Source: Ehretia macrophylla
Lineage: Eukaryota > Streptophyta > Magnoliopsida > Boraginales > Ehretiaceae
Direction: 5' to 3'
Length of the DNA: 64,000 bases
NCBI GenBank assembly: GCA_037974665.1
Contig: CM075781.1
Span: 32,093,235-32,157,234, forward strand
Shown: positions 20,201-42,171 of the stretch, in pieces
How positions within the stretch are numbered: the stretch's first letter is position 1
Layout of the letters: every line of letters begins with the position of its first letter
Program-made: the position numbers and the translations under genes
Notes under the pieces: model-generated
Databases searched by the model: none
What the model was told of the DNA's origin: nothing
The model's input: the letters and a program-made list of their open reading frames with translations, nothing else

Positions 20201-20280
20201 GTATGAAATATAAATCCCATGATAACAAGGCAGAAATCTCTTCAAGCTTTGCCCCTTGACTCAACCTCCACTACAAAAAA

Positions 20281-20765
20281 AACTACAATTGGCGACGACC
20301 AAAATCGTCTCCATGGTGTCGCTAAATGGGTATTGGTGACAATTGGCGACGCCATGGAGATGATAATTAACTGACGCCAAAAGTAGCATCGCCAATTTGT
20401 CGAATCGTCGCCATATCATCGCTTTTGGCGACGCCGTTTTAGTCGGTCTCCAAATTCATCTCCGAATCATCTCCCAAAAATAGTGTCTCCACATCGTCAC
20501 CAAAAACATGGTGTCCCCATATCGTCTCCAAAAAATACTGTCTCCATTCCATTTCCAAACCATCTCCAAGAACATAGTGTCTTCAATCCGTCTCCAAAAA
20601 TATCACATCTCTATTCCGTCACTAAGCCGTCTCCAAAAAAAACCATCTCCATCCCGTCTCCCAAAAAATCATCTCCACCCCGTCTCCAAAAAAAACCGTT
20701 TCCACTCCATCTCCAAACTGTCTCCAAATTAAATCGTAAAATTTCGTATCCATGTCGTCGTCAAT
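20281..20765. repeat. CACTA-1 left subterminal repeats
   Basis: The words GGCGACG and TCGCCAA recur near the end, followed by many copies of CCGTCTCCAAA and CCATCTCCAAA up to 20765. In En/Spm such arrays are the binding sites of TnpA. They create spurious open frames, which I do not count as genes. Confidence 0.75.
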
Positions 20766-21028
20766 ATTGAAATTAATAAATTTATTTTTTCATATAAATT
20801 CTTTAAATTTTTTTTTAAATCATTAATTATCTATTTGTTAGAACAAGATATAATGCACAACCATGTAATATAAATTAATTCTAATTCATATTCAAAAGTA
20901 TATTGTACCAGACCATTAACATTTACACAAATCCTAAACGTAATTAAACATACTCAAGTGCCGCATATATTAACATAACATAAAAACAGGGAAATTATTC
21001 TTCATTTCCATCATCAGTGAAGCGAATC

Positions 21029-22954
21029 CTAATGAGCAGGTGGCATCCTCATTTTTGTTAGTAGTGCGATCTGTGCCAGCAGTTCTTGTAGTTTAGCATT
21101 GTTTTCTTCTTGAAGTTGTTGAAGCCGCTCAGTTTGTTCTTGTTGTGATTTAAGCAATTCCTCATTCTCGGAGCGGTGCAGATCAATATTCTCATTCAAC
21201 GTTGTCGTCGCCCTAGCAAGAACTTGTGAAATCTCTATCTCCGTGATTTGGCGTCTGCCTGGTGGGTTGTGGTGTACAGATCCAACTGAAGAAGAAGACC
21301 ATACCCCATATATGCGCCCTCTGTTGGGTTTGCCCACAGGCTGCAAGAAGAGTACATTATAGTTTATCGGTGTCACTGCTGAATCGGCCTCGGAAGAAAC
21401 AATTGCCTACTGCACCAGTTCTTCATAATCAACTTGTACGACAGATTTAAGACTTAACTATTTTAGACATTTCGTTGGTAAATATATATTAAATTTTTTT
21501 TATTATCAACAACTTGCACATACCATGGTCTGTTCTGCCCTAGGGTCTGTGAATGGCATGTCTGGTCCCTTGTGATGAGCCCTTGCGAAAACATCGGCCC
21601 TAGTGATTGGTGCTCCCGCTCCTCTGCCTACAAATTTTCAAAATACCAAAACATAACAAATACATTTATGATGGGTTGCATAATTGAATTTAATTACGAC
21701 ATATCATTCATTAAATTTTTCTACATACATACCAATCTCTTTGCAGCCTCTTTATAAGGGATAGGTCCCAAATGATGCAGAGATGGCCGATTCAGTCAGT
21801 TATCCGAATTTCGCTTTGAAATTGTATTCCATTCAGGGGTATCCCACTTTTCTTTCAACTGATCCCATGCAACATCGCCCACCCACTTCGGCTTCTTATT
21901 ACGCGTCTGTCCTTTATTAAAAAGGTCACATATACAATGGTCGGCTTTCGAATCAAACATTCCGTGAAGGGCAGCGTCCTCGCTGGGGAACCACTTGTAG
22001 ACCCCTGCAACCAATAATTAATGCATATAACATATTAGCGAACCACCTATCCCAAAAATCATCGGGGACCTCACCCTAAGTCATCCAAGGCTGAGAATAT
22101 CCGGCGTTCATTGCTCTAGTGACTTCTTTAGTTGCTGCGTACGATGTCCATCTAAACATGATCAAAACAATAATTAAGATATTAAAAAACCATAACATAG
22201 GGGACCATTAGGATAGGGTTACCCGTGGGAAAAATACAAAATCAAATACTTACCTACCCTCGTCGAATGTCAAATGTGTCCATCTATCAACCTGCCACAT
22301 GACGTAAGTATCGTGAGGGAACCCATAATATTACCATGGCTCTATCTCTGCAGGCCATTCTTGAGCTGCGGTTGATGACTCGGGTTGTTCAGGAATTGGT
22401 ATGGATTGAAGCATAAGGTCGGGCTCAGTCGCACCATTAACGTTTACCTGTAATTCCTTTATACCTTGTCTCAGGCCGGACGATGATGTGGAAGAGGTAG
22501 ACCTCTCCTATGGTGGTAGTGGAACGTGAAAACGCACATGTCCTGATGCAGTGTCAAGGGGAGCTCCCAACGTGCTAGTATGAATATGTACCCTTTGTTG
22601 TGAGAGATACGAACTGGGTGGAATCACGTGCTCCAAAGCTACTGATGATGATGATGAGCCATGACCCGTCGATGGCTGATCGTCAGAAGACCCATGACCA
22701 ATTGAATGTGGTGCTCTTGTGGACCCACGACCAACTGAATGCGGTGTAACGTTGGACCTACGACCAACTAAAAGCGGTGCTCCTGTTGACCTACGACCAG
22801 TCGTGGTTCCACGTCTACTGGAACCACGCCCAGTCGAAGGATATCCACCAGTAGACGTACTGGATGTACGCCCACGACCTGCACTTCCATGCCTAGACCC
22901 CATCCCGAGGAATTTTCTAATTCCACTTGAGGAGTTATCTTTACCTGCAGCCAT
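21029..22954 (-). pseudogene. CACTA-1 tnpA-like gene (plant transposase_24 type), probably broken
   Basis: The likely start is ATG at 22954-22952 (MAAGKDNSSS). The first part is Gly/Arg/Ser-rich and runs to a TAG at 22510-22508. Separate exon-like pieces follow: one at about 22370-22260 with FPHDTYVMWQVDRWTHLTF, one at 22014-21796 with GDVAWDQLKEKWDTPEW (the transposase_24 signature region), and the C-terminal exon 21376-21029, a Gln/Glu/Leu-rich coiled coil. Introns with consensus ends are likely between them, but I did not fix every junction. The protein would bind the subterminal repeats and pair the ends. A homologous C-terminal exon is kept in CACTA-2 at 31749-31348. Confidence 0.65.
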
Positions 22955-23117
22955 GTCTATTCCCCAACAATTCACAGTAAGGAAATTAAAGGTAATTGAT
23001 ACACACATTAATAGATACATACACATCATCCGTTAATTTACTTATAAATTGTTTTCATCCTTCCATAAATAAGTCGCATACATTAACATGAATTCATTAC
23101 ATAATAATAAAAACTAA

Positions 23118-26100
23118 CTAAATATCATCTTCCTTGTCATCATCAGCGTCATCATCATTACCATCAACATCAACATCATCATCATCATCTTCATCTTCAT
23201 CTTCGTCTTGTGAATCATCATCATCATCATCATAATCTTCTTTTTCTTCAATCTCCTCGTCCTCTTGTTGAGCATCATGTTGAACATGTAAATCATTAAT
23301 ATCTTCGTCTAATATTTCTATGTTCTCACCCAATACATGACAAAGTGGAGGTAAGTCTGCATCAGTCGGCTGTACTTTGGCCACATTCATGTCATCTGAC
23401 TGAAAAACTATTTCTTTTTCTCCTACACTCTGTTTCTTGATAGATCATATAAATTTCTTAAACGGATTTTAACCACAGCCTACCAATTCATTCGATCCAT
23501 TTTGGCTCCTGGGTATTTATAGTAGTACACTTGTTAAGCTTGTTTAGCCAAAAAAAACGGTTCATATTTTTGATACTTTCTCTTAACGTTCACTTCAACC
23601 TGTCCGATCTTCAGATGATACTTCACCCCTCTATCCTTTGTAGAATTATACCAGTCACACTTGAAAAGAATGACCCTTGTATATTGCAATGTTGGATTAT
23701 GAAATTCAAGTTCAATAATGTCGTTCAATACTCTATAGTATCCAACATCCTCAGTATTACTATCATTTATCCCTTTAACAAACACTCCACTATTGTAGGT
23801 TGATTTTAATTTCCCAAAATTTAATGTATGAAACCGGTAACCGTTGACCAAGTACCTTGACCAACTGCGAACCCGTCTACTAGGGCACATTGAAAGACAT
23901 TTTACACGATCATCAATGTCATTAGTGCCCATTAGCTGCAAATGCCACAATATGGTTACAAATGCAAAGTGAAAGCAGAATGTTAATTTAATACCAAATA
24001 TGACCTCGTCTTAAGATATACTTACATGGTGATATAACCATATTGAAAAATTGTTGTAAACTTGATATTGAATTTCTGTCGAACACAATTCGGTATAGTT
24101 TTGGCGAAAATATTTCTCGAACATGTTATGAAAAAATAATATCATGTGTCGGTTAAATCCTGTAGTAATGTATGAGAAACTGTGCATTCCAATTTTCAAA
24201 TAATATACATATTCGTACCAGATATAGGGGGAAACCTCTTAGTAATTGGTCAAAACATAGATGTGTGTCGCATGTAATTCTTGATCATCTAAGTTTCGTT
24301 CTGTTTCCTTTACAATTGGATATCCCGGGTAAGTAAATATAGATAAACGACCATCAGGGTATGCCACCTCGTTATATTGGTTATTCCGCGTAATACTTCT
24401 CGTTCTAGTACCCACGTGTGGTTCAAAATAATAAGAACAAAAAGTAAATGTTTCCAAAATGTGATAAGCTTCACAAATTGATCCTTCAACATGTGCTTTA
24501 TTCTTTACCTTCCGCTTCAATCTTTGCAAAAACTTCTTGAAAGGATTCATCCAGCAATATTGTATCGGACCACCACAAATGGCTTCATATACCAAGTGAA
24601 TTGTCAAATGCTCCATTGAATCGAAAAAACTAGAGGGTAACATTTTCTCCAAATTGCAAAATGTGATGACAATATTGTCCTGCATCCTTTCCAAATCGAT
24701 CATTTGAAGAGTTGTGCAACATATGTTGGTAAAGAATAAACTTAGTTGGGCAAAAACTTCCCAAACATGTTTTGGTAGTAGCTCATGTAATGCAATCGGA
24801 AGCAATCTCTCCATAAATATATGAAAATCGTGACTCTTCATATGTGACATCTTCAGATCCTTCATGTCCACATATCGGGATAAATTGAAAGCATATCCAT
24901 CAGGGAGTTGTAGTTTTCTAACCAATTTAAGCATTACTTTTTCTCTTTTCCACAGGCAGTGTGCAAACACCCATCTTCAATTCCTGCTCACCGCATAATT
25001 TCGGTCGGTCACAAAAGGTTGATACATCAACTCTCGCTTTGAGGTTGTCTTTTGTCTTACCCTTGATTGCCATCACCGTGTTGAAAACATTATCAAACAC
25101 ATTTTTTTCAATATGCATCACGTCCAAATTGTGTCAGACAAGATGTGTCTTCCAGTAAGGCAAGGCTCAGAAAATACTTCACTTTGTCCAATTGTGCCAA
25201 TCCCCAAAACCTAGTAGTTTGCTTCTTCTCATGTCGTTTATTTTCGGGTAATCTTTCACTAGTTCCCACAACTGCATACCATTTAATCTTGGTCGTGGCC
25301 GATCAGTTTCAACTCTAACCTTGATAAAATTCTTTTTGTTACGTTGTAATGCATTATTCAGTGGTAAGAACTGATGATAACAATCAAAGAATGAATTCTT
25401 CCTACCCGTTGGTAATCGAAATGCTTTAAATTTATCCGTACAATACGGGCATGATAGCTTCCCATGTGTGCTCCATCCAGACAACATACCATATGCTGGG
25501 AAATCATTTATTGTCCATAGCAAAGCAGCCCTTAAAATAAAAAAATTTTATGTGGCAACATCATAACAAGGTGCACCTTTCAACCATAAATTTTATAATT
25601 CTTCAATCAGCGGCTCTAGGTACACATCAATATTCTTACCAAGATTCTTGGGACCGGGGATAAGCAGGGTTAAAAACATGAAAGGATCTTTCATGCACAT
25701 CCAAGGTGGCAAATTGTACGGTGTCATAATGACAGGCCAACAAGAATAAGGTTGAGCATTTGAACTGAACGAATTAAAACCATCTGAGCACAAACCAAGC
25801 CGAACATTTTTGGGTTCACTTGCAAATTCAGGATATATACTATCGAAATATTTCTATGAATCAGCGTCAAAGGGATGACAAATTTTTTCATCATCCACCT
25901 GGTGATTCTTGTGCCACTGTATGTGATCTGCTGTCACCTTTGACATGTATAGTCTTTTCAACCTTGGAGTCAGTGGGAAAAACCGTAATTGTTGATATGG
26001 TTTCAACTTACTCTGTTTTGAACCACGTGTTGTCAGTTTGAAACATCGGTGATGACAACGTGGACAGAAATCCAGGTGTTTTCTGTCATTGTAGAATAAG

Positions 26101-26639
26101 GTACATCCATTTACACAAACATCTATCTTCACATATCCTAGTCCCAAGGGTCTAATTAGTTGCTTACACCTGTAAAAGTTTTCAGGCATCGTATAAGTGT
26201 TCGGCAACGAATCCCTAACTGTTCCAATCATTGTGTTAAAACATAATTCACTCATGTTATGCTCGGCCTTGACATTCATGTAACGAGACACAGCAGATAA
26301 CTGAGTCAAGTTTTCACAACCTTCATACAATGGTAAATCAGTAGCCTTCAACAACCCAAAAAATTATTGTACTTCCATGTTAGGTTCTTCTGTATAAAAG
26401 TTTTCATCACCAAACCATTCCGGACCAACAGCATCAAATACTATTGTCCTATAGTTATTTCTTTCATCAATCATCTCGTTATAATCATTATTTTGAAAAT
26501 TTGACGTACGTAGATTAAAATTATTTGACATATCTTCCGCGTGTTCAGTCCATTTATAGTAGTTTACTATGAAACCCTTCCTATAAAGTTGAAGTATGAC
26601 CTCGTCTGATTTAAGTGGACTGGGCCACGGCCCAGTCAC
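23118..26639 (-). pseudogene. tnp2: CACTA-1 tnp2 (TnpD-type transposase), decayed
   Basis: Reading leftward from 26639, one finds an N-terminus with YYKWTEHAED, the block LPLYEGCENLTQLSAVSRYM (26354 onward), VRLGLCSDGFNSF (around 25800), GWSTHGKLSCPYC, and LDVMHIEKNVFDN (25127 onward). The DUF4218-type HLVYEAICGGPIQYCWMNPF follows (within 24970-24239), then a DUF4216-type exon with NGYRFHT (23950-23534) and an Asp/Glu-rich tail (23390-23118). The pieces from 26639 to about 24950 share one frame. In-frame stops occur at 26366-26364, 25856-25854 (Trp expected), 25595-25593 and about four more sites between there and 25127, then at 24241-24239. A frameshift lies near 24950 and an intron near 24025-23938. 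Intact family members cut the element at its ends. Confidence 0.85.
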
Positions 26640-27320
26640 TCACTGGGCCGTTGCTTAGCCATAATGGTTAGCTGGTTCCCCATGGTGAAGGCCCAGTGAG
26701 TCACTCGGCCATCGCCCAGTGTTTATGGGGACCCAACAAAGACGGGTCCCTATGGAGATGGCCCAGTCTGTCTCCTTTTAATCTTTGGACGGGCCTCTCC
26801 GTAATGGAGATGGCCCAGTCCGTCTCAAAATTAAAGACCGACTGAGTCGTGTCCAATATGAAGAGTTGGGCATGTCTCCCATGGAGATGGCCCAATCCAT
26901 CTCCAAAATAGAGACGGCACAAGTCGTCTCCAATTTGGAATGCTGGCCCACTCCATAATGGAGACGGCCCAGTCCATCTCCAAAATGGAGACGGCCTGAG
27001 CCGTCTCCATTATGGAGTGGTCGGGCGCTCCAAATGGAGACGGCTCTGGGCCTCTCCTCATGGAAACGGCCTAGTCCGTCTCCAAAATGGAGTGGTCGGG
27101 AGCTCCAAATGGAGACGACCCAAGTCGTCTCCATATTGGAGCGCTGGGCCTTTACTCATGGAGATGGCCCAGTCCGTCTCCACTATGGAGCGATTGGACG
27201 CTCCAAATGGAGACGGTCCAAGCCGTCTCTATATTGGAGCGCTGGGCCTCTCCTCATGGAGACGGGCCAGTCCGTCTCCATTTTGGAGACGGACTGGGCC
27301 GTCTCCATTTAGAAGCCCAG
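26640..27320. repeat. CACTA-1 palindrome array at the 5' end of tnp2
   Basis: About twenty copies of GGAGACGG or its reverse complement CCGTCTCC are arranged as inverted pairs, often around GCCCAGT or GGGCC. A clear example is GGAGACGGACTGGGCCGTCTCC-like at 27283-27308. The array starts beside the first tnp2 codons, so it probably includes the tnp2 promoter. CACTA-2 has a related array at 39389-40080. The spurious frames in it are not genes. Confidence 0.75.
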
Positions 27321-27960
27321 CTGTGACAAAGTTTAATTTATTTTTTCTTTTTTGTTATAATTATTTAGCAGACATTAAAATTTGACAAATTAAAATATCT
27401 TGGTTCAAATTTTATAACCAGATGTGAAACTAATGTATGATTTTGTATTTTTTATAATTAAGCTTTTATCAAACTACAAATTATTGAATTAATAATTTTT
27501 TTTCTAACTAAAAAGCTTATAAAAATATAATGTAAATTAAGTTAATTCATTAATTATTGTGCGAAATTATTATCAACCAAAAATTGACTACTATGTAGTA
27601 ATTTTGAAAAATAAATAAGTAATAATTAATTAATTTATATTTTATATTTAAATCTTATATTAATTGTATTTTTATTACTTCTCATTACATAGAATATGAA
27701 TAAACCGATTATATTATTGAATTAGTTCTCCATTCGGATCATATATATAATGTGAAAGTTATAGAATTTCAAAATATTTTAATAATCCATAAATATTGTA
27801 TAATTAATTAAATAAACACAATATTTTTAAATAGTTATTAAAAGTATTGAATTAAACAATTAGTTAACTAATGTACTTGGAAATCTAAAGTTAATATGTT
27901 ATAATTCTGAATGCATTTTTTTAATTAAACAACTTAAATTCAACCATAAATAGATTTATA
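27321..27960. other. AT-rich spacer in CACTA-1
   Basis: Very AT-rich; I see no gene, repeat array or motif in it. Confidence 0.5.
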
Positions 27961-28655
27961 AATGTCATCAAGTCCCGTCTCCAATCCTTATACACACATC
28001 AATTGGAACGTACCATTGATCAATCTTGTAATTATTACTATAAGACCATCTGAACTGGCAGGTCCCCGTTTTGCAAGGGAGATGGCTTGAGCAACTTTTA
28101 AAAGTGTCAGAGTAGCATGCAATTTCTTGGCCCCAATTATTTGACCCATCAAAGACCAATGGTAGGCAATCACGTGCCCGCGAACCACGGTGCAAAACAT
28201 AAAGAAATGTTAGGTCCACGTTTTGGAAGTGACATTGCGAAATAATGGGGTATGAATGCAATAGTTAGCGTGCAATGCATGTCGTGTCGGTTGACATATT
28301 GACATCCCTACATTTACGTCTTCTCCAAAAAAAAAAATTTTCTTCTTTGTTATAAATAACGTATATGTCATCACAAATTTTAAAACTTTTATCAATGCCG
28401 TGAAGTCCCGACACTAATATTAATCATCATGGGCTGTCATACAGACCATTGATCAATCTTGTCATTAGTACTATGAGAACATGTTATATGCTACCACATG
28501 GCAGACGATCGTCTGAACTGGCAGGGCCCCGTTTTGCAAGGGAGCTGGGTTCAGCAGCTTTTTAACCATCCAAAGTAGCGTGCACGCCATGTCCCCAATT
28601 ATTTAACCTATCCAAGACAAATGCTACGCAGTCATATGTCCGCAAACCATTCGTC
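27961..28655. repeat. Duplicated ~250-bp block upstream of the CACTA-1 EAR gene
   Basis: 27961-28200 and 28394-28655 share long runs, including ACCATTGATCAATCTTGT, CTGAACTGGCAGG followed by CCCCGTTTTGCAAGGGAG, CCCCAATTATTT and a CCGCRAACCA word, in the same order. They lie directly upstream of the TATA box at 28737. Confidence 0.7.
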
Positions 28656-28736
28656 CATATCTTAACATATTAAAAAATTGCTCCATTGTCTCCACACCGT
28701 CAACAAGCTATCGAAATAGAATTCAATGACCTGTTT

Positions 28737-28748
28737 TCTATAAATAGC
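28737..28748 (+). promoter_or_regulatory. TATA box of the CACTA-1 EAR gene
   Basis: TCTATAAATAGC lies about 80 bp before the ATG at 28818, a normal spacing for a plant promoter with a short leader. Confidence 0.6.
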
Positions 28749-28817
28749 ACTTGCAATTGCATATTCTCATAGCCTCTCAAATTTTCAATTGCAGATTTTA
28801 TCTAATTTGTTTGAAGG

Positions 28818-29036
28818 ATGAGTAAGGATCAACAACACCAAGGAGATTCTGTTCGAGTCACCAAGGATGAAGAGGTGGATACAAAAGAAAAGTATCCAAA
28901 TGCGAGCAAATATATAAAACCACAACTTGATCTAAATGCTCCGCCGAAGTACGACGGATACATTTCTAATGCCCAAGTAGGCCAACTCGTTCAAGATGAA
29001 ATGATGCATATCTATTACCCAAACTTTTACCCTTAA
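28818..29036 (+). CDS. Small transposon-borne protein with an EAR motif (CACTA-1 copy)
   Basis: This intact 72-codon frame starts MSKDQQ and ends at TAA 29034-29036. The central block LDLNAPPKYDGYIS (residues about 37-50) contains DLNAPP, which fits the plant EAR repression motif DLNxxP. The N-terminal half is hydrophilic and Lys/Asp/Glu-rich; no signal peptide, membrane segment or zinc finger is seen. A homologue of 70 codons sits at the same place in CACTA-2 (40344-40556), sharing MSK, DLNxPPKxDGYISxAQ and scattered C-terminal residues. It runs opposite to the tnp genes under its own TATA box. EAR peptides are known to bind TOPLESS-type co-repressors; that this one does is inference. I do not recognise it as a described family. 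Confidence 0.7.
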   Translation: MSKDQQHQGDSVRVTKDEEVDTKEKYPNASKYIKPQLDLNAPPKYDGYISNAQVGQLVQDEMMHIYYPNFYP

Positions 29037-29690
29037 TATTTCTATATGTTAAGAAAATCATCTTGGAATCAATAGTACAATTTGTTACTAAACGTAACAA
29101 TGTTATTATGTTCTTCTGGTTGATGTGTAGTGTCCGGATGTTATGTATTAGTGATCATGATGTACTATGTTAGGTATTAAGTAGGTGAGTTCATGTATTT
29201 CGAGCAAATAAATTGTAATATTTAATTATGTTAGGTATTAAGTCGTTGTGTTGTTGTATTAATGAAGGATGATATGTCATCCTTTATTAATTGGGAATGT
29301 AAAATTAAGTTTATGTTTGTAATGTATTAACTCTTATAATAAAATGTTTTAATTTTAAATTTGTTTTCTTGATTTCAAACAACAAATTGTTTATACATAA
29401 CTTCTTCTTAAAATTTAAGAAGGAAAAGCTCATAGTGAGTAGTTGTATGTATAATTGATAATTAAAATAATTCATCTTAATATTTTACAATAATATTCAA
29501 TCTAACGCATAATTAAATTTAATGCTTTAAAAGCACTCAAAAATTGTTAAAAGTAAACTTAGAACTAATTGTTTGTATTATAAATACTGACAACGATTTC
29601 ATGTACCTTCAGTAACATTGGTTTTCATATTCACTTTAGTCCCAACAGTTACAAAAGTGAGAGTGTTTACATCAAATTGATAACAATGAG
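29037..29690. other. Downstream region of the CACTA-1 EAR gene
   Basis: AT-rich. AATAAA-like words (for example near 29208 and 29340) could serve polyadenylation of the small gene. No other gene is seen. Confidence 0.4.
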
Positions 29691-29699
29691 GACTAAATG

Positions 29700-30015
29700 T
29701 AAACATATTTTTTGGCGACCGCAGGGTGACTAAATTGCAATTCATCTCTGAACCGTCTCCAGATTGTCGCCAATTGGCGATGACAGGGTGACTACATGTC
29801 ATTATCCGTCACCAAGTAGTCACCATATGGTCACTTTTGGAGACAACATATGATGTCGTCACCATATTGTCGCCAATTGGCGACTAATTGGCGACGGCAA
29901 GGTGACTACATGTCATTATCCATCACTAAGTAGTCACCATATGCTTACTTTTGGAGACGACATATGATGTCGTCACCATATGGTCGCCAATTGGCGACGA
30001 CCCATCACAAAAAAC
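29700..30015. repeat. CACTA-1 right subterminal repeats
   Basis: Repeated units containing TTGGCGAC, GTGACTACATGTCATTATCC and GTCGTCACCATAT occur two to three times before the right inverted repeat. The left end has matching GGCGACG words. Confidence 0.75.
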
Positions 30016-30030
30016 AATTTTTTTGTAGTG

Positions 30031-30583: not shown

Positions 30584-30599
30584 CACTACAAAAAAATTT

Positions 30600-31130
30600 G
30601 GATTCAGCGAGAGACGGTTCCTCTCACCGTGCCATCGCCAATGTGGAATTTACGATGGCACCATGAATGGAACTATCCGTCAGACAGGAGATTGTCGCCA
30701 AAATGGTTCATCTCACCGCGCCGTCACTGTTTTGACGACGGTTGGAAACGCTCTCCATCCCGTCTCCAAATCTGCCCTCACCAACCCCTCACCATAATTT
30801 TCAATCTCCAGGTCGTCACTACAGTCCGCCTTCACCAACCCCTCACCATAATGTTCCGTCTCCAGCCCATCACAAAACATTCCTGTCACCGGCCCCTCGT
30901 CAATTAGAACTGTCTCACAATTGTCACTGTGTATCCCATCGACAAGCCCTCACCAACATTTCCCCTCACTCGGCCGTCACCAATGATTGTTGTCACTAAA
31001 CACTCGCCAACTTAACCCCCTCACCAAACTGTCACAAAATTGTCGTCGCCAAGCCTTCACCAACCTTTCCCCTCACCAAACCGTCACTAATTATTCCCTT
31101 CACCCAGCCCTCACCAACTTAACTATTCTA
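30600..31130. repeat. CACTA-2 left subterminal repeats
   Basis: The words CCGTCACCAA, CCCTCACCAAC and TCGCCAA recur from 30620 to about 31120. They differ from the CACTA-1 words, so the two elements probably used different TnpA specificities. Confidence 0.7.
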
Positions 31131-31347
31131 TCTAATTAAACTAGTCATAATTCCTTCAAAAATTTTGAAACAATGTCCCAAATTGAACCTATTTCATATA
31201 TGAAATACAATTCAAATAATGACGCAAATACGATATTATCTATATCTATTTAAAATACAGACTGTTATTTTAAACTATAATCAAAAGGAATGTATTGTAC
31301 ATGCCAGTGTATTAAACATCAAACTACAAAGATAACATTCTCACAAA

Positions 31348-31749
31348 TTACTCTCCATCTTCATCATTATGTGAAGATGAAGATTGTTGGTCTTCAGGTT
31401 GACCACAAACTTTCACGTAGAGAACTTCCAACACTTTGTTCTGCTTCGTTATTTGTTGCTGAAGTTGAATGATTAACTCGTCCTGACTCTCGATCTGCTG
31501 GCGATGACTTTGTACAGTTTCATTCAAAGTCACTGTGGCACGCGTAACTGTGGCAGTCAGTTGTTCCTCTGTGATGACACGCCGATGATGGGATGCAGTA
31601 TTTGACACGGACTCAACGGATACCTGAGAACCTACCTCGTATATCCGACCTTTTCGTGGTGGTCCAATAGCCTGCAAAAATACTGCGTTCTCATCCACAG
31701 GCGTTGGATTCGAGTCTGATTCAGATGCATTCCTAGCCGTTTGGAGCAT
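31348..31749 (-). pseudogene. CACTA-2 tnpA-like gene, C-terminal exon only
   Basis: The frame ends in a Gln-rich coiled coil and an acidic Ser tail. Its first half contains GPPRKGRIYEVGSQVSVESV, matching GKPNRGRIYGVWSSSSVGSV in the CACTA-1 exon at 21376-21029. The Thr/Ala-rich block before the coiled coil also matches. The upstream exons with the DNA-binding part are missing, so it cannot work as a full TnpA. Confidence 0.65.
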
Positions 31750-31798
31750 TTCGTCGTAACGAGCCTACAAAGGCAGTAGTAACAAGTTAGTGTTAAAT

Positions 31799-32470
31799 AA
31801 CCGATGTGAGTTACAACCAAATGATAACAAGCTACATATATTTAATATTGAAACACATAATATTAAATTACTACATCTGTCTTTAATGGATTTACTCGTC
31901 AAAAAATAAACGGAGTTACAACCAAATGGGTCGTAAGCTACACATACTTAATATTGAAACATACAATATTAAAAATACTACATCTGTCTTTAATGCATTT
32001 ACTCGTCAAAAAAAAAAAACGGACATAATCTCCTCTATATTTCGGACTTCTCCCAATTACCTGTTTGTGAATAAAGCCAACCTACTACATAGTATTCAAG
32101 CTCATACAGTACCACACTTAACCTCAACATATTAATCATGTTTGTTTACAACCCTAAGGAGACATTTCTAAATACATTAGACAACACAACAAGTTACTGT
32201 TACATAACCGATGTGAGTTACCACCAAATTTTTATAAGCTACACATACTTAATATTCCAACGCACAATATTAAGTTACCACATATGTCTTTAATCAATAT
32301 TTACTCGACAAAAAAAAAACGGACAGAGTCTCCTCTGTATTTAGGACTTTTCCCAATTACCTGTTTGTGAATTAAGCCAACCTACTACATAGTTACAAGC
32401 TCATACAGTACCACATTTAACCTCAACATATTAATCATATTCTACTATAACCTTAAGAAAACATTTCTAG
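31799..32470. repeat. Tandem direct repeats in CACTA-2
   Basis: Three copies of a ~110-bp unit containing CCGATGTGAGTTAC, TTAATATTGAAACA and CATCTGTCTTTAAT start near 31799, 31910 and 32205. The last two are part of a longer ~300-bp repeat that also shares TCCCAATTACCTGTTTGTGA and CAGTACCACA. This suggests unequal exchange or slippage. Confidence 0.65.
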
Positions 32471-32908
32471 AGTGAGATTATTTTTTATTTTTGTCGGAGA
32501 GTGAGAATTGACAGCTGTAACCAACCGAAGCAAAATGGTGCAGCAGCATTTTTATTTTTTTATTAAATAAATACGCATTTACTAAAATATTCTCAATAAT
32601 GACAGATACTTCAGTGCTAACGTTCCTGTTAATGCCTTAAACTTTTAAATGATATTATAATTTTATATAATATTAGACACGAGTTATCAAATAAATTTGA
32701 ATTCAAATTTTCTCCTTATTTATTTTAAAAAATATTAAAATTATGCAATACTAAAAATTAAATCTCGCTTGAACGTGGTAGGGTTATTAGCTGCCAAATA
32801 TCCCATCAGTATCATTTATCCCCACACGAAGGAGAGGAGCCCATACATAGTGATCTCTGCACTAAGGCTCGCATCAATATTGGCCCGACAAAGCAAAGGC
32901 AGCTAAAA

Positions 32909-34852
32909 ATGGAGACCAGCAACAACCCCCCAATGCCTCCTGTTAACTCCTTTAGAGTCATGCGTCGTGTAGTCTTCAACCGTGCATTTGCTCTTGTTTA
33001 CACCATAGCTATCGTAGCTCTACTCTATCACCATGCACTCAAACTCATCCACTCCACCTCCTTATTCTATCTCTTCATAAACATCTCCATGTTGATTTCC
33101 GATTTTGTTCTTGCATTCATGTGGTCAACTACGCAATCCTTTCGTATGCGTCCAGTTATACGTGAAGAGTACATTGAAAATCTTCAGAAACTCATAAACA
33201 AACAAGATTTTCTAGCTTTGGACGTATTCATATGCACTGCTGATCCATACAAAGAGCCTCTTCTTAACGTTGTTAACACAGCTTTATGAGTTATGGGTTA
33301 TGATTACCTAACAGAGAAGATTTCAGTTTATGTTTCTGATGATGGAGGCTCTGAGCTCACTCTCTTTGCTTTCATGGAGGCTGCTAAATTTGGAAAGCAT
33401 TGGTTGCCATTTTGTAGAGAGAATAACATCATGGAGAGATGCCCTGATGCTTATTTCGGATCAAACTATGCAATGACATCTGATGCTGAGAAGATTAAGG
33501 TAATCTTAATTATCCTTACTTAAATCTATTTAGTGATAGATTTTTTTTTTTAATTTTTTAACATCATTTCTCATTTTTTTTACATATATTGTTGAAGGGA
33601 CATATCCTGGCAATTTTATTCGTGCATGGGACCAAATATTCTCTATTTTAGGTTTGCTTCCCTTGGGATCTCGGAAAGTATATTGCAGATTATAGCTCTG
33701 TTTGACCTACTTTTTAAACACTTGAAAGCGCTTCTTATAAGTTTAGAAGCTGAAATAACTTATTTGACACATTTTTAAAAGTGCTTTTAGATAAAAGATG
33801 AAACTGAAAAAAGTTAAAAAATTGATAAACTCCAAATTGGAGCTTTTCAAAAAAGGTTTTTGCGAATCTGTTTTACATAATGCAAGAAATTATTTTTTTT
33901 TCTTTTTTCTCAAATTTACCCCTCCATATTTTTAAAGTCTGATATTATCCTCAAAATTTTTAAAAGTTCTACGTTGTCTAATATAGGTCAAATAATCAAT
34001 AACTTTTGTTCAAAAACACTTCTTGCAAAAGCTCTACTGCTCAAAAACTAAAATTTCACAGCTAGATCAAATAGAGCCTATGACCTATAACAAATTTCAT
34101 AAATTAGACCCCTATAGTTTTTTGAAATTACATAATACTCATGATTTCAAAACCACCAAATACCATTCATGTGGTTTGTTAAACTAAGCACACATCCCTC
34201 TGTTAGAAAGTTGCCTATCTTATCAGAGAGTGTACCACGTACACACTCGCCAGATACAATTTTTCAAATTTTTTTGCTTAAATAAATTATTTTTGGACAA
34301 AAATATCCTTACTTAAATACATTTCTTTTTCTTTTTTCTCTCTTCACCTACCTTTTCAAAAAGTAAAAAATAAAAATACAGTCATTATCATTCCCAATAC
34401 CCCCATAAAAAAAAGTTATGGATCCTACTTTTTCTATATTAGAAAATGATAAAAAGAAAAGAACAACTGATAAGACGTATTTTGTTAAATATTGACCAAA
34501 GATGTGATTAAAAAGATGAAGTGGTCCACTTGGCCAAAATAAAAATTATAATGAAGTAGTCCATCGTCTCATGGAAGTAGATATGTGAAAATAATAAAAG
34601 TGTATCTTAGTATAAAATAAATGAATGTAAGTATTAACGAATAACAAAAAAAGAAAAAGAAAATAGTATAAACTACTTCTAATCTAATTAATTTGGTTGC
34701 AGATTATGTACGAGAGCATGAAGAATAGGGTAGAAAACGTGGTCCAGAGAGGGAATGTTCCTGGAGAATATATCACGAAGGAGGAAGAGGGTGAAGCTTT
34801 TAGCAAATGGAATGAAGGCTTCACCCGTCATGATCATCCCACAGTGATACAG
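32909..34852 (+). pseudogene. CSLG: 5' part of a cellulose-synthase-like G gene captured in CACTA-2
   Basis: Exon 1 (32909-33499) starts METSNNPP, has two predicted membrane segments (about residues 26-45 and 52-70) and the family blocks VFICTADPYKEP and VYVSDDGGSELT, the first catalytic Asp region of these family-2 glycosyltransferases. A TGA at 33287-33289 replaces a Ser codon of the NTALSVM motif. Exon 2 (34703-34852) reads IMYESMKNRVENVV to FTRHDHPTVIQ; donor GT 33500, acceptor AG 34702 and donor GT 34853 all fit, phase 0. The remaining exons, with the second catalytic half, are absent. Intact members sit in ER or Golgi membranes. The 5' leader was also captured. CslE is the alternative, but CslG fits better. 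Confidence 0.82.
33698..34079. mobile_element. MITE in the CslG intron (hAT-like family, copy 1)
   Basis: Ends near GCTCTGTTTGACCTA and, reversed, GGCTCTATTTGATCTAG form imperfect inverted repeats. The interior shares GAGCTTTT, GGTTTTTGCGAA and TTTTACATAATG words with the copies at 42172-42552 and 43428-43806. A second partial repeat, with CCCCTATAGTTTTTTGAAATT, follows at 34080-34230. Confidence 0.5.
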
Positions 34853-34929
34853 GTATATACCATCATGCCTATCCATGTCTACTACTTATGCACGAAAATA
34901 ATTAGTCTGCCACTAGGGCTTGAGTACGG

Positions 34930-35371
34930 TATGACTTTAGATTCTCTTAAGGTCATGTTTTATTTGTCTATTTGTAATAAGTGAGATTTCCTTTATTAAA
35001 GGAAACCACTTTTGTTGCATCAGGTTTGTCTTATTATGAATTATTAGGAATCTCTTTATGTCGTGTCAATTTTTCCTTTATTGAAGGAAGCTGCTTTAGT
35101 CCTTGTCAGGAGTAGTGAAGATTTCGCTTTGTATTATTAGACTTTGTAATGGTTTGCCTATAAATAATGAAGAACCCCTGACTAAAGGGGCAGTGTCAGA
35201 TAGAGTCAAATAGAGTCAAATTTGGATTGCAATACATCTTTCTTTCTCTCAAATCTTATCAGAATTAGAGTTAGAATCAGATGTAGTTTGAAACACATCT
35301 TCTACTCTTCTTTCTCAGAGCCATGTCTTCCACCTCCCGCTCCTTACCTTTCCCTTAGTAGTCTCAGAGCC
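34930..35371 (+). promoter_or_regulatory. Presumed promoter, leader and primer site of the endogenous caulimovirid
   Basis: A TATA box (TATAAATA, 35159-35166) is followed by a leader and by AGTAGTCTCAGAGCC at 35357-35371, which resembles the initiator-tRNA-Met primer site TGGTATCAGAGCC of caulimovirids. The left limit is a guess; the CslG intron begins at 34853. Confidence 0.45.
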
Positions 35372-35477
35372 TAGTTAATTGTAGCACTTCCCTATTCTGG
35401 TATTGAAGGTCTTAAACTATACTTGTGTATTGAACACTAGAGTCTTTGGCAATAGGGCAATAGCTGTTAAAGAGTGA

Positions 35478-36649
35478 ATGAAAGGCGCAGTAAGTCCCGC
35501 AGTAAGTCCAGTCGTGACTAGTGTATCCACCATGGCTGATCTTCTTCTGCCAGAACAAGAAGTTGTTGCTAACAACTCTGAAGTCACTTCCTTTGATCCT
35601 TCTGCATCTCACTATGAGGTAGACATAACCCAAACACCTCCATCTACCAAACCAGGTGAACTCTTCAAACTCTCTCCGTTAAACCCATACTCATATTACC
35701 AAACTTCCCAACTCACACAAAAGTTCAAATCTTTATTACCTATCAAGCCAGTAGTCCTTACAACCGTGTACAAATCCTCTACACTCTCTATACAATCCGT
35801 ATCCTCTTCCTGCTCAGAAACCTATCTTCCTATACTTTCTGAACCTGATCTGCGTAGATATAGATAGAAAGGTTACAAAGTTTACACCTTGGAGCCATTC
35901 GTCTAGCCTTACAGCCTAGTTTCCTTGCCGGGAAAAATGTTTCATGTCTAGTCTCTTTACAAGATACCAGGTGGCGTAAGTTTAATGATGCACTCATCTA
36001 TGCTGTCGAAGCAGGTCTTCACAATGACCATGTTCTCATCCAGGTTGAACCAAACTTCACCCTTGATCTTTCCCGTCCTACCTTTTCTCAAACCATATAG
36101 GTTCTTATCCAACTTTATGGAGCTGATATGAACCCAAATGAAACTGTTGTTCCACTCCATCATTCTATGACCTATAAAGTCCAAACCTATCTTTTTTCCA
36201 TGGACCACAACTGTAAGCCTCGAGTCCACGTGTTAGGTAATAGTAATGTTACCCAACCAAAGATCTACACCAAACATGAACTCACTTTCCCTCCTTGTTG
36301 GAAAAATGATTATGAAAGAAGCCATAACCTACCAATCATCCATGATTCACCAAGAATTTCTAGACATCCTCTAGAACTAGGTTGTGTTGCCATATCATTT
36401 CCAACAGAATCCCAACCAGCTGAACCATGTGAAAAATGTCAACTTGCTGGACATCCCCAGTCCTATCCACACTGTGTCAGAAAACCCTTTGCTACCAGAT
36501 CTAGGTCTCTTCTAGATATGTTTGTTCTATTAACTTTTCAGAAGACATTTATTGCACAGGAGAAACAACCAATGCTTATGTTGGTAAATGGTAAGTTACC
36601 AAAACCAGGCCAGAAGATGTCAGACAAATCGAGTCAACAATCAATTTGA
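35478..36649 (+). pseudogene. Endogenous caulimovirid: movement-protein-like region, broken
   Basis: After an N-terminal Ser/Pro/Thr-rich stretch (35478-35867), the coding sense passes to another frame. From about 35890 to 36110 that frame resembles the plant viral 30K movement-protein core (a short match reads LVSLQDTRWRKFNDALI), and the sense continues at 36128-36649. Stops and frame changes separate the pieces, so no functional protein can be made. The order movement region, coat-like region, zinc knuckle, protease, reverse transcriptase in one direction fits single-polyprotein caulimovirids of petuvirus type. This is a remnant in the plant genome. Confidence 0.55.
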
Positions 36650-36903
36650 GCAACATGAATGCAAAAGCTCAGAATGCTGCCATTCAAAAAATATGGTCAG
36701 ATCTCAGGGAACGTGTTGCATGGACAAAAGAATCCCATGATCACCTCAGATAAGATTGTTATGACCAATATAATGACCTCCACAATGCTTTCGACAAGAA
36801 TGACATATACCATCAGAGAACTCCAATCAACTAGAAAAAACTGCAGAAAGTCGCTCAAGTTCGGAACCTTTCCGGACAAGTTCGTTCTTGGAACAGTGTC
36901 AAT

Positions 36904-38260
36904 ATGATTAACGTGGATAAATTTTCTTCAGAGAAGCATTATCGTGATTCAGACGAGTTCAAGAGAAAAAGAGAACAACTCGCTGAAAAGCTCAAACAGC
37001 CAACTAAGCTAAAGAAGCAGTCCTCTTATCCTTGGAAGCATAATCCAAATCCAGATCATGCAGTCTGGATACCAAGTGGAAATTGTGAAAAAGCTTATTG
37101 GATTGATCTTACATTACCTCCTCATTATCTCTCCAAAGAGAAAATTATCCCAACCGGGTGGGGTGATGAAGACGAGAAAGAAGGTCTTAGTGAAATTTTC
37201 TCAGTCATTTCGTCCTTTGATTCCTTTGATCCATTTGAAAAGGATTCATCCTCTCAGACGATTCCACCATACAAAGGGCCAGTTCTTATGCAAACCCCTG
37301 TGACACCGTTCTATACGGACACCACAAGAACACATACACACAACCCTGTACAAACTAATCCTGATGATTCAGAAGCAACCAGTGACCAAGGAGAAACTTT
37401 CCAAGCAGGATAACACTGGAACCAAACACAAGCACAAGTCCCACAGGTTCCACAACAGCAACCTCAGAGACAACAAAACATTGAAGGAAAAGTTTCCATC
37501 TTATATGCTCCAGATCACAAGCAATTCTGGAACATTGATGCAATTCCTCCTGATGACAGACTCAAATATCTTGAGAAAATGGATGCATGGATAAATGGAG
37601 AATCTCTCCAAAATCCTACTCTTGAGATAAGAGATATCATTGACCGTCTTGTTGCTGCTTTTAAATGATCACTTCGCAGTTGGTGGACAAGAATGCTGTC
37701 AAAAGAAGAAAGACAAATCATCCTGACAGATGCAGATCCTATTAAGATATTCCTAAGATGTCTACGAAACATTTTCGTAGGACAAACAACCCAAGAGATT
37801 GAAAAGGCAGAAAAGGAGTTCTTACTCAAAAAATGATGTGATGTTGCAAAACTTGGAGATTACTATCTCAGACAGGAAACTCTATATTTTACTTTTGGGA
37901 AAAAAATACAGAAACCATCAAGAAGGCGTTTGTCTTCAACATGTCACAACCACTTTCTGAGTTACTTGAAACAGAGTTCAAACGAGCCAATATTGCAGAT
38001 CTAAGACAGGTGAGTCTTGCTACTAGATGGCCAGAAAGCTCATTCAAGATCAGTGTGAGTCTAAACGACTTGGAAAACTTCTCAAAAGCAACAAGCAGAA
38101 AACAATGGATACCTTTTGCAGAAAAGATTTCCAAAAGTTTGGCTGTCACACTCACAGTTACTCTCTATGTTCGTGTCACAAATACAAGAAGCACAAATAT
38201 CAGAAAAGGTTTCACAAGTCTAGAAAACCTTTCAAGAAGTTCAGATTTGTGAGGAAAAGA
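36904..38260 (+). pseudogene. Endogenous caulimovirid: coat-protein-like region, broken
   Basis: Charged, Pro/Gln/Thr-rich sequence (36904-37413) leads into a more folded region around 37500-37900 with short blocks typical of a capsid domain before the zinc knuckle. The frame changes and stops several times (for example a stop near 37668). I place it by position between the movement region and the CCHC knuckle; no residue proves it. Confidence 0.5.
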
Positions 38261-38284
38261 GCAAAACCTTCCTCTTCCACTAAA

Positions 38285-38326
38285 TGTTTTCTTTGTGGAA
38301 AGAAAGACCATTTTACAAAGGATTGT
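38285..38326 (+). pseudogene. Endogenous caulimovirid: CCHC zinc knuckle
   Basis: CFLCGKKDHFTKDC fits C-x2-C-x4-H-x4-C. It ends a Lys/Arg-rich basic region, as at the C-terminus of pararetroviral coat proteins, where it binds nucleic acid. Confidence 0.8.
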
Positions 38327-38429
38327 TACCTCAAGAAGTCCAAGAAGCTACCAGTAAAACTTGTCCAGTTCATCTCAACTCAAAACTTTAATGACCAGCT
38401 ATACACATGGACTTCCGAACCAGAATAAG

Positions 38430-39388
38430 CCGTCCTTAACCTTGATACAGCCTCATCCTCAGATCTCACCTCAGAATCCGAATCCTCTGATTCAGAACCA
38501 AACCTCTCCATAGCCAAAATACAAAAAATCACTGAACAACCAATCCTTACCACTTCCAAAGCTACCTTTACCCCAGGACAGATCTATAAGCCATACATAA
38601 AGCTTGTTGTAAACCCTCCAGGATATGTTCCTATCACCGTTACTGCACTTCTAGACACAGGTTCATGTATTTCTTTCATGAAATCCAAGTGTCTTCCTCC
38701 TGAATTTTGGATTTCCTCTAGAGCAACCTTTACCACTGCTTCTGGTAGTGGATTTGCAAGTGAAGCACATTCCATGACCATTCCCATACACTTATCCCCA
38801 GATGTCTTAGTTCGACACAGCTTTTACCAGTATGATCAATGCTGTGAAGATATTCTTTTAGGAATGGATTTTCTCACCTTACTTGCTCCATTCTCATTTC
38901 AGACAGATGGTTTCCAATTCCTGCATAATCAGTATACCCTTTGGGTATCCTTACAGAAATTGCCCTCACAGGTTTCAGCCATTCAAGATGATGAATTTGC
39001 TGAAGAAAGAAACCTCCTTCTTTCTTGTTGCGGTGATCTTCCAAACAAGTTTTGGGAAAGAGAGAAACACTTTGTCTCTCTACTTTACAAAGAAAATTGG
39101 CAGATGCCACACCAAACCGCCTCTCATCCAGGAATGCCAAAAGATGAAGATCTTTGTCAAGCTGAAATTCAGACACTACTTGAGCAAGGTCTCATCCGAC
39201 CATCCAGATCTCCATGGGCAAGTCATGCCTTTTATGTCAACAAAAGATCTGAACAAGTCCGAGGAAAGAAACGATTGGTGATAGATTATCGCCAACTCAA
39301 TGATCAATTGCAGGATATCAGATACCCTCTTCCAAGAAAGGAACAACTCCTTCAGAAGCTATCCAAAGCCAAATTCTTCTCTAACATG
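38430..39388 (+). pseudogene. Endogenous caulimovirid: aspartic protease and start of reverse transcriptase, truncated
   Basis: This is the same frame as the zinc knuckle, separated from it by a TAA at 38426-38428. The protease active site ALLDTGSC is at 38645-38668 with ILLGMDFL downstream. The start of reverse transcriptase follows (a short match is GLIRPSRSPWASHAFYV, then RLVIDYRQLN and DIRYPLP). It stops after KAKFFSN at 39388, where CACTA palindromes begin, so the YxDD catalytic site and RNase H are gone. The RYPLP and spacing are closer to caulimovirids than to the gypsy elements here. It is non-functional. Confidence 0.75.
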
Positions 39389-40080
39389 GAGAGGGGCTGA
39401 TGCCCGTCTCCATTTAGACGGGCCGATGCCCTTCTCCATTTAATCCTAACATGGAGACGGGTTGACCTGTCTCCATTTAAAAAGGCCCACAAACGTGGGC
39501 CTCTTATTGGAGATGGGCATCGGCCCGTCTCCAACAGGGAGACGGGCTGATGCCCGTCTCCATTTAAAGAGGCCCACAAATGTGGGCCTCTTATTGGAGA
39601 CGAGCATCGGCCCGTCTCCAACAACCCATCTCCAATTAAAAAGGTCCACAAGTGTGGGCCTCTTATTGAAGATGGGCATCAGCCCGTCTCCAACAGGGAG
39701 ACAGGCTGATGCTCGTCTCCATTTAAAGAAGCCCACAAACATGGGCCTCTTATTGGAGACGGGCATCGGCCCATCTCCAACAGGGAGAAGGGCATCACCC
39801 GTCTCCAAAATAGAGACGGGCATCACCCATCTCCATTTATTGGAGACGGGCATTGGCCCGTCTCCAACATGGAGACGGGCTGATGCCCGTCTCTAATTAA
39901 AGAGGCCCACAAACGTGGGCCTCCCATCTCGTCTCTAATATTGAGACGGGATGCCCGTCTCTAATATTGAGACGGGCATCAGGCCCATCTCCAACATGGT
40001 GATGGGCATCAGGCCCGTCTCCAACATGGTGACGGGCATCAGGACCGTTTCCATTGTGGAGACGGGCTGCTGTCGCCAAC
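39389..40080. repeat. CACTA-2 palindrome array
   Basis: About eight units are built from GGAGACGGGC and its reverse complement GCCCGTCTCC with ATCGG or TGAT between, alternating with hairpins such as CCCACAAACGTGGGC. Related to the array at 26640-27320 in CACTA-1, and in the same position relative to the EAR gene. It starts at the exact end of the captured viral sequence. Confidence 0.8.
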
Positions 40081-40260
40081 CCGTCTCCAATGAAAAAGGC
40101 TGACATGACTCCAAAAATTTGATGATTACAATCTGACCGTGCCTTCATCGAGCCGTCGCCAAACCGTCGCAAATGTTTGGAAGTCACGTGAAGATGGCAC
40201 CAATAATTTGGGGAGAGACCCTTCACCGTGTCATCGCCAAATTTTCACCAATTTGAGTTC

Positions 40261-40268
40261 TATATAAA
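40261..40268 (+). promoter_or_regulatory. TATA box of the CACTA-2 EAR gene
   Basis: TATATAAA lies about 80 bp before the ATG at 40344, the same spacing as in CACTA-1. Both leaders share a TTWATCTAATT word before the ATG. Confidence 0.6.
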
Positions 40269-40343
40269 GAGCTTACAATCCCGCATATTGTCTTTCATAT
40301 TTGCAACCGACTTTAATCTAATTGCTTCAATATCTTATAAACG

Positions 40344-40556
40344 ATGAGTAAGGAAGTTCAAGGTGAATGGGTTACCGTGAACAAGGAGAAACAGACAAAT
40401 AAATGTGATTTATCGAAGGCAAGCAGTAGTAGAGTTGAAGGTCAATTTGACCTAAACGAACCACCAAAAGAAGATGGTTACATTTCGATGGCTCAACACC
40501 ATCAAAGGAATGTGGATCAAATGTATCGGATCCTTCTGCCGAAGTTGTTCGAGTGA
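40344..40556 (+). CDS. Small transposon-borne protein with an EAR motif (CACTA-2 copy)
   Basis: This intact 70-codon frame starts MSKEVQ and stops with TGA at 40554-40556. The block FDLNEPPKEDGYIS (about residues 35-48) carries DLNEPP, fitting the EAR pattern DLNxxP, and aligns with LDLNAPPKYDGYIS in CACTA-1. The flanking halves are only weakly conserved, so the core appears to be the constrained part. It is the only intact coding sequence in this element, whose tnp genes are nearly all lost. A nuclear role with a TOPLESS-type co-repressor is inference; there is no visible DNA-binding domain, so it would need a partner. Confidence 0.7.
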   Translation: MSKEVQGEWVTVNKEKQTNKCDLSKASSSRVEGQFDLNEPPKEDGYISMAQHHQRNVDQMYRILLPKLFE

Positions 40557-40925
40557 AAAATTATGTAAAAACGTAGTAAGTAAGGTTAACAAATATATGT
40601 GATATATATTAACAAAATATTTGTGTGTATCTTGTTATGCACTTTTGTATGGTTTCCAGTAAAGTTAACCGTCTATTAATGTAATCCCTAATTATCGAAT
40701 GTTATGCAATAAAATCATGTTCATTGCAAATTATGTTAAGAAATTTCTATAATATTGTAGTAAATACTATATATGTAGACAAACATAGTATTTAATTATT
40801 GTGTTTAAATAACGACTACACTTGAAGTTAAAAATACATTAGTAATTGGTACTGTCACTAAAACAATTTTAACACATCGTTGTTACTCAGTGTTTAAAGA
40901 CGTTGTTCGTAGAAATAAATATGGG
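40557..40925. other. Downstream region of the CACTA-2 EAR gene
   Basis: AT-rich; an AATAAA word near 40709 could serve polyadenylation. No other gene is seen. Confidence 0.4.
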
Positions 40926-40929
40926 AAAT

Positions 40930-41195
40930 TGAGCGGCAAACTTTTTGGCGATGGCATGGTGACGGACTGTCACAGTGCCATCACCTAGCCGTTTCTATAT
41001 ATCGAAAGGGGAAAAACTTATCACTGAGCCGTCACCAAATTAGTGACGGTCGTAGATGGGCCGTCACCGAATGAGTGATGGCTCGATGATGGTTATTGTT
41101 GCCCGTAACTGTGCCGTCACTTTTCCGTCACAAAATTAGTGTCAATATTTTCCTTTACTGTACCACCGCCATATCGGCGATGGTCTGTCGCAGAA
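40930..41195. repeat. CACTA-2 right subterminal repeats
   Basis: CCGTCACCAAAT, GTGACGG and GGCGATGG words recur up to the right inverted repeat and match the words of the left end. Confidence 0.7.
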
Positions 41196-41323
41196 TCTAA
41201 TTTTTTTTGTAGTGATAGAAAAGCAGGTGGAGATGAATTAGATTTTCTTTTAATATTTTCAATAGAACAGAAAACAAGGGTCCATATGGGAGCTGAGAAT
41301 CTAGTCCATATGAATTTACATTC

Positions 41324-41756
41324 TTTTTTTTTTTTTTGTCGACGAAAGAATTTATATTAGCACATAAAACAAGAGTACATATAAGGGTTTGAAAAAACAT
41401 AAATTGGCCTAAGAAATAGTATAACAGCGAGTCCAAACCAAAGCCAATCAAAAAAGGAAATAAAAAATAGCCCAAGAACCACAATCACCAACAGGTCGAA
41501 GCCTCAAAACCCAAACTTCAACAACCAGAGATAAACATGAGATAAAGACCCAGTTTGAACCAAGTCAAAGAACACCTATCGAGCCACTGAAAAAGAGGCG
41601 AGAAGCTCACCAATGGTGAGAGAGAAAAACACACGTAAAAAGGGATACACAACCCTCTCGGAAGTAATTAGTCGAGAATCCCATAATCTAACGAGTCCAA
41701 TCTCGCTAATACACGACGCGTACCACATCAAACCAGAAGGAAGAAATAAAAGCTAA
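41324..41756 (-). mobile_element. LINE- or SINE-like retroposon, 5'-truncated, with poly(A) and target duplication
   Basis: On the minus strand it ends GTCGAC followed by a 14-base A run (T run at 41324-41337). The flanks CCATATGAATTTACATTC (41306-41323) and CCATATGAGTTTACATTC (41757-41774) form an 18-bp target duplication with one mismatch. No reverse transcriptase is present, so it is a short tail of a LINE or a SINE. Confidence 0.75.
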
Positions 41757-42171
41757 CCATATGAGTTTACATTCAAGGCCCCAATATATGGGCGTTTATG
41801 AGATTTGATTGATTCAGATGGCATATTGCTAAATTAGTAAATTGGCTATAATTAATCTTTTGCTGCCTAATTGGCTTCGTACTTTAGTTGCTATGTCAAT
41901 ATATATTATATTATATTATTAGTCCAATATATATATATATATATATTAGATCCTCATAAAATGAATGTTATTTACAGTCCAAGGTGATTCGTTGTTAGTT
42001 TTAAATTACTCCAAGCAATTATATAATAGACGAGGACCAATTTGAAACTGTGAAATACAATGGGCCAGACGGCTATTTCACTTATGATCGGAGTGTCAAA
42101 TGGCCCAACAATACCAAGTTCACATACTCTCAGACCAAAAAAATATAAAGGGTGGCGCCTGACCTTAAACG

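Follow-up and report, generated by a model that had tools for sequence, protein, structure and literature searches.

A small divergent third gene with an EAR-like core in CACTA transposons of Ehretia macrophylla

Plant CACTA (En/Spm) transposons are described with two open reading frames in the available portions of PMC8195511, PMC2613891 and PMC4158355, which agree with the preliminary description of the present locus in naming TnpA and TnpD/TNP2 as the usual gene content. An accessory gene with a proposed action on host silencing is found in another superfamily, as VANC of the Mutator-type VANDAL elements, and VANC recognises DNA motifs according to the accessible part of PMC13317346. Outside transposons, the DLNxxP core is a feature of plant EAR repressors (ERF, C2H2 and others). 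It is also found in Jsi1-type fungal effectors, where it is proposed to engage TOPLESS; these proteins are secreted, are at least 120 aa long among those listed, and have been shown to bind TOPLESS in some cases (PMC8126959, available portion). The Ehretia macrophylla locus studied here shares with described plant CACTA elements the CACTA termini, the subterminal repeats, TNP2 (PF02992, DUF4218, DUF4216) and a TnpA-like piece, and differs from them in a third, divergent gene with a 72-aa product, here named ear1. Unlike VANC, ear1 has no recognised domain; unlike the fungal effectors, its link to TOPLESS is a putative one; and unlike the plant EAR repressors, with which it shares DLNxxP, it is 72 aa long, transposon-borne and without a recognised DNA-binding domain.

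The window, a 64,000-nucleotide stretch of contig CM075781.1, holds two adjacent elements. CACTA-1 (20269-30030, tnp genes on the minus strand) is bounded by the inverted terminal sequence CACTACAAAAAA at 20269 and 30019-30030, with a CACTA terminus at each end, and contains TNP2; its flanking 3-bp target duplication is imperfect (CTC/CTT). The upstream part of TNP2 (25182-26363, minus strand) includes a Transposase_21 piece at 25179-25547 (PF02992, E 1e-19) and a piece at 25854-26363 that has no Pfam match and adjoins other TNP2 pieces in relatives. The downstream part (23537-24976, minus strand) carries DUF4218 and DUF4216, whose matches span 23534-24976. Near the left end lies a TnpA-like piece (21032-21406, minus strand) whose Transposase_24 match is weak (E 0.055) and falls short of the curated cut-off. 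It is 37-41% identical to its counterpart in CACTA-2, and both pieces lie about 0.8-1.2 kb in from the left end. Repeat families place an internal GC-rich cluster of end-type repeats at 26619-27320, between TNP2 and ear1. The motif was counted 5 and 9 times per 400 bp there, whereas sequence outside the elements averages 0.05; the repeats of this cluster are of the subterminal type, GTCNCCA. The right subterminal repeats and terminus occupy 29712-30030 according to terminus and repeat analyses. Read in the tnp-forward direction, CACTA-1 thus runs from terminus and subterminal repeats through reversed ear1, the end-type repeat cluster, TNP2 and the TnpA-like piece to the other terminus.

An intact 72-codon gene opposite to the CACTA-1 tnp genes had been proposed from the preliminary description, and this is what we find: ear1 is an intact ORF of 72 codons plus stop on the plus strand (28818-29036), on the strand opposite to the tnp pieces and containing LDLNAPPKYDGYIS in the window sequence. 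It is divergent from TNP2, sits between TNP2 and the nearer terminus of CACTA-1, and has its ATG 1213 bp from the right end. A TATA box, TATAAATA, lies 79 bp 5' of the ATG (28739-28746, plus strand). The conserved core, DLNAPPKYDGYISNAQ (28929-28976, plus strand), joins an EAR-like DLNxxP to PKxDGYISxAQ and has 13 of 16 residues in common with CACTA-2. Since a Pfam search at E up to 1 matched nothing in the ear1 protein, the protein has no recognised DNA-binding domain and is not classed as an EAR transcription factor. The predicted structure has a single helix at residues 51-66, the rest of the chain being unstructured (mean pLDDT 60); this model fits a short motif beside a docking helix, but proves nothing. 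The best match in a comparison with the PDB had an E-value of 0.074, and none was convincing. Upstream of ear1, the stretch 28044-28187 is duplicated at 28507-28649 (about 80% identity, 463 bp apart), and the duplicated unit recurs in relatives such as loci L035 and L047. Non-coding sequence 400-550 bp downstream of the ear1 ATG (29218-29368) is also conserved and is possibly the leader of the opposite-strand tnp transcript.

CACTA-2 (30584-41214, minus strand) belongs to a related family and was delimited by its termini and an ATA/ATA target duplication. The preliminary description placed a homologue of the small gene at the corresponding position in this element, and the search of the window recovered it: ear2 (40344-40556, plus strand) encodes 70 aa plus stop and is 39% identical to ear1 over 64 residues (E 7e-11). 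Its ATG lies 871 bp from the right end of the element and follows TATATAAAG by about 83 bp. The TnpA-like piece of CACTA-2 (31351-31764, minus strand; Transposase_24, E 4e-4, below the curated cut-off) matches that of CACTA-1 in place, and it was the only tnp piece found, the four TNP2 pieces of CACTA-1 having no match in CACTA-2. The ear proteins and the TnpA pieces are both about 40% identical between the two elements. When the DNA of CACTA-1 was compared with 38801-42000, the sole match near the genes was a weak 44-base stretch of the core (E 0.33), the stronger matches being end-type repeats. A repeat cluster just before ear2 (39384-40183) is present by motif count and absent by word count. 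Also within CACTA-2, at 33290-33523 and 38429-39400, Pfam matches mark a piece resembling cellulose synthase (PF03552, E 9e-17) and part of a protease of the pararetrovirus type (PF02160, E 3e-5).

A search of the Ehretia macrophylla genome with the small gene gave 1183 candidates, the best 150 of which, including the window copy, were scored. All 150 had E-values below 1e-25, and all 20 contigs were represented. Internal stops were absent from 122 of the 150 and present in the other 28, a stop-free share that describes these best-scoring candidates and should not be extended to the family as a whole. An identical score (103.5 bits, E 5.4e-27) is shared by seventeen of the 150 rows, which points to probable recent amplification. 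Twenty loci, chosen from the 150 to span the score groups, were then viewed with 10 kb of context each. In 14 of these, the other strand carries a TNP2 match upstream of the gene, sometimes only a fragment, and one further locus has a TnpA-like match alone. A CACTA terminus forming the right end follows the ATG by about 1.2-1.7 kb in 19 of the 20, L043 having none; it has a plain T-run before TTGTAGTG in ten loci and takes the form TTTTTCTTGTAGTG in nine, and the terminus pattern had no match in 140 kb of upstream sequence. Among six copies of the second terminus group (15 pairs), homology ends within 6 bases of the terminus. The anticipated homologues in other CACTA elements are therefore present within this genome.

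The promoter and reading frame of the small gene recur in the same loci. A TATA box of the form TATAAATA or TATATATA stands at -73 to -81 in 21 of 21 loci (the window and the 20), and an in-frame stop lies 2-5 codons 5' of the ATG in all 20. End-type repeats between TNP2 and the small gene are clear in L035, L047 and L049 and faint before the small gene in L039 and L040; those of CACTA-1 are weaker by exact words and evident by motif, and no internal cluster was found in L045 or L050. In L035 the cluster extends from about -2.1 to -0.9 kb relative to the ATG. In L038 (piece d) and L048 (pieces c and d), TNP2 is partial and the small gene is still open. For seven loci the gene block and TNP2 yield the same three groups, and the small gene is common to two TNP2 clades and to the more distant CACTA-2 family. 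Between the clades (CACTA-1, L032, L035 and L049 against L039, L040 and L050), divergence is 0.21-0.30 in the block and 0.26-0.28 in TNP2, and between the window copy and L032, L035 and L049 it is 0.23-0.24 in the block and 0.09 in TNP2. Exchange of the gene block between the clades was considered because the inter-clade branch has a length of 0.095 in the block, less than the 0.319 of TNP2; it is not claimed, as the tree topologies agree (seven loci, little resolution).

Selection on the protein was assessed between and within families. In the core DLNxPPKxDGYISxAQ, ear1 and ear2 differ by 1, 2 and 12 bases at the first, second and third codon positions, respectively. Thirteen of 16 residues are kept, 9 of those 13 codons are silently changed, and random placement of the 15 differences retains as many core residues with a probability of about 1e-5. 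Within the family, 26 stop-free ORFs from 25 places gave an omega of 0.605 for the whole ORF (2dlnL 9.5 against omega 1). For the 21-codon core omega was 0.43, and the log likelihood falls by 4.6 when it is set to 1, so that dN/dS along the core is not near 1; outside the core, omega was 0.66, which does not lie clearly below 1. These values support purifying selection that peaks in the core of the small protein. By the same measure, a 169-aa piece of TNP2 (8 of 9 copies stop-free) has an omega of 0.25, and the small gene is therefore less constrained than TNP2. Copy number, fixed CACTA context, TATA box, codon pattern and an omega below 1 together establish that ear1 is a genuine third gene of CACTA transposons, under selection.

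Two readings would deny the protein a function for the element. According to the first, the gene is a passenger, an old host-gene capture carried without use. CACTA elements do capture host fragments (PMC13317346, in its available portion), CACTA-2 itself holds the cellulose-synthase-like piece, and recent copies acquire stops at the neutral rate: nearest copies show 18 stops to 98 silent changes (0.18, 0.16 expected). A neutral stop rate would also be expected if single copies decay while source copies stay intact, and the ratio of replacement to silent changes between nearest copies, 153/98 = 1.56 where 2.68 is expected, is in line with selection. The silent-change pattern between families and the omega below 1 speak against a passenger, as does the constant position, orientation and promoter of the gene in both TNP2 clades and in CACTA-2; we regard this reading as very unlikely, and it is strongly disfavoured. 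According to the second, conservation acts on the DNA or RNA of the stretch, for end recognition or as an antisense tnp leader, and the ORF is incidental. The 3' neighbour at +400 to +550 is conserved as well, and in six young copies the stretch from 222 to 700 (7/478 variable) is about as invariant as the ORF (1 of 222 bases variable; P 0.45). The ORF of these copies is less variable than the sequence just before it (16/400, P 0.0085) or near the end (26/626, P 0.0035), in line with selection on the gene. The changes between the ear1 and ear2 cores nevertheless fall mostly at third codon positions, and a non-coding role appears extremely unlikely. A conserved hairpin at about 29262-29291 was also considered and rejected, since it was matched within four edits in 10 of the 20 loci and several of these matches are non-palindromic.

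The reading of DLNAPP as an instance of the EAR pattern DLNxxP, made in the preliminary description, holds at the level of the motif, which is DLNAPP in ear1 and DLNEPP in ear2. The window has 222 stop-to-stop ORFs of 60 aa or more; DLNxxP occurs in ear1 and ear2 only, and its 17 occurrences in 821 such ORFs of the 20 loci all come from the small-gene family. This confinement, within the ORFs examined, indicates more than chance. The motif is retained in 42 of 51 loci (36 of 43 distinct places); D38 is replaced by N or G in 5 of the 51 (4 of the 43), including open copies. The invariant residues of 16 aligned proteins include L39, N40, P43, K44, Y48, Q53, M62, I65 and P68, and the conserved block runs well past the EAR motif, with later residues as conserved as DLN. 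Because the block is longer than the motif and D38 is variable, an EAR function of ear1, including putative TOPLESS binding, is plausible on motif grounds and not established. PPKY would also fit PPxY, a known motif form, but the tyrosine is absent from ear2 and this reading was abandoned.

The same data bear on a reading in which the third gene is real and its DLNxxP incidental, the whole core DLNxPPKxDGYISxAQ binding some other host or transposon protein (e.g. TNP2 or TnpA) and not TOPLESS. PKxDGYISxAQ is conserved as strongly as DLN, D38 varies in the five loci mentioned, and DLN is followed by A or E, and not by the L or F of the classic ERF consensus (L/F)DLN(L/F)xP. Set against these points are the rarity of the motif by chance in the ORFs examined and its retention between families whose remaining DNA has diverged. 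We consider an incidental motif a serious possibility that stops short of being probable.

We tentatively favor another possible explanation, that the product of this third CACTA gene would act as an adaptor tuning transposase transcription. The disordered front part of this small protein would display the EAR-type DLNxxP core, which would engage TOPLESS/TPR co-repressors at the second WD40 domain, as reported for DLNxxP: Ustilago Jsi1 binds that domain of TOPLESS through the motif, and altering the motif abolishes binding (PMC8126959, available portion). The conserved C-terminal helix would dock on a transposon protein, such as a TnpA-like partner or TNP2, and carry the co-repressor to two sets of repeats, those at either end of the element and those clustered next to the TNP2 start; there it may tune transcription of the transposase genes. 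The end-type repeats between TNP2 and ear1 would be a natural place of action. TnpA of En/Spm is itself described as anti-silencing (PMC10801548, available portion).

The opposite effect can also be envisaged, with the free microprotein as a decoy: by binding up TOPLESS/TPR it would lift repression from the transposon instead of recruiting it, an anti-silencing effect that VANC proteins reach by another route. ear1 has no recognised DNA-binding domain by Pfam at E up to 1, and anti-silencing genes are known in plant transposons (PMC13317346 and PMC10801548, available portions). Jsi1, with its DLNxxP, induces host genes, which its authors read as interference with DLNxxP repressors (PMC8126959, as far as its available text goes). 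Titrating a co-repressor would, however, probably need high expression, and the conserved C-terminal helix suggests a specific partner; we judge a decoy unlikely.

As to origin, the internal end-type repeats may be what remains of two elements that long ago fused around a host gene. Such capture, by fusion of elements around a gene, is described for Pack-CACTA in the available part of PMC13317346. On a wider scenario, a plant DNA transposon lineage would have gained a TOPLESS-engaging microprotein gene before the present families split, possibly by fusion of neighbouring CACTA copies around a host gene, and would have kept it since to control its own silencing, as a counterpart of TOPLESS-acting pathogen effectors. 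We consider this wider scenario doubtful.

The open-licence literature, in the portions available, yielded no report of a third CACTA gene like ear1 and none of a CACTA protein bearing an EAR motif; where those portions use 'additional ORF' or 'ORF3', the words refer to retrotransposons. In the protein collection, ear1 as a single query sequence had no relatives, and an 8-row ear1 alignment gave 6 candidates, none at E up to 1. As a control, the DUF4218 piece of TNP2 matched 64 proteins, many from named plants, and the collection therefore covers plants. Transposon ORFs of 72 aa are seldom annotated in protein collections, so absence from this one is weak evidence. No ear1 relatives were found in viral_contigs.

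With more than 100 stop-free copies in a single genome, a third gene under selection alters the known make-up of a classic transposon that is usually described with two. A survey of rice DLN proteins counted non-transposon proteins (PMC6479872, in its available portion), and EAR surveys that omit transposon proteins would miss a gene of the ear1 type. If ear1 acts via TOPLESS, it would form a direct link between DNA transposons and the co-repressor system of plants, and would offer a testable route by which a transposon sets its own silencing.
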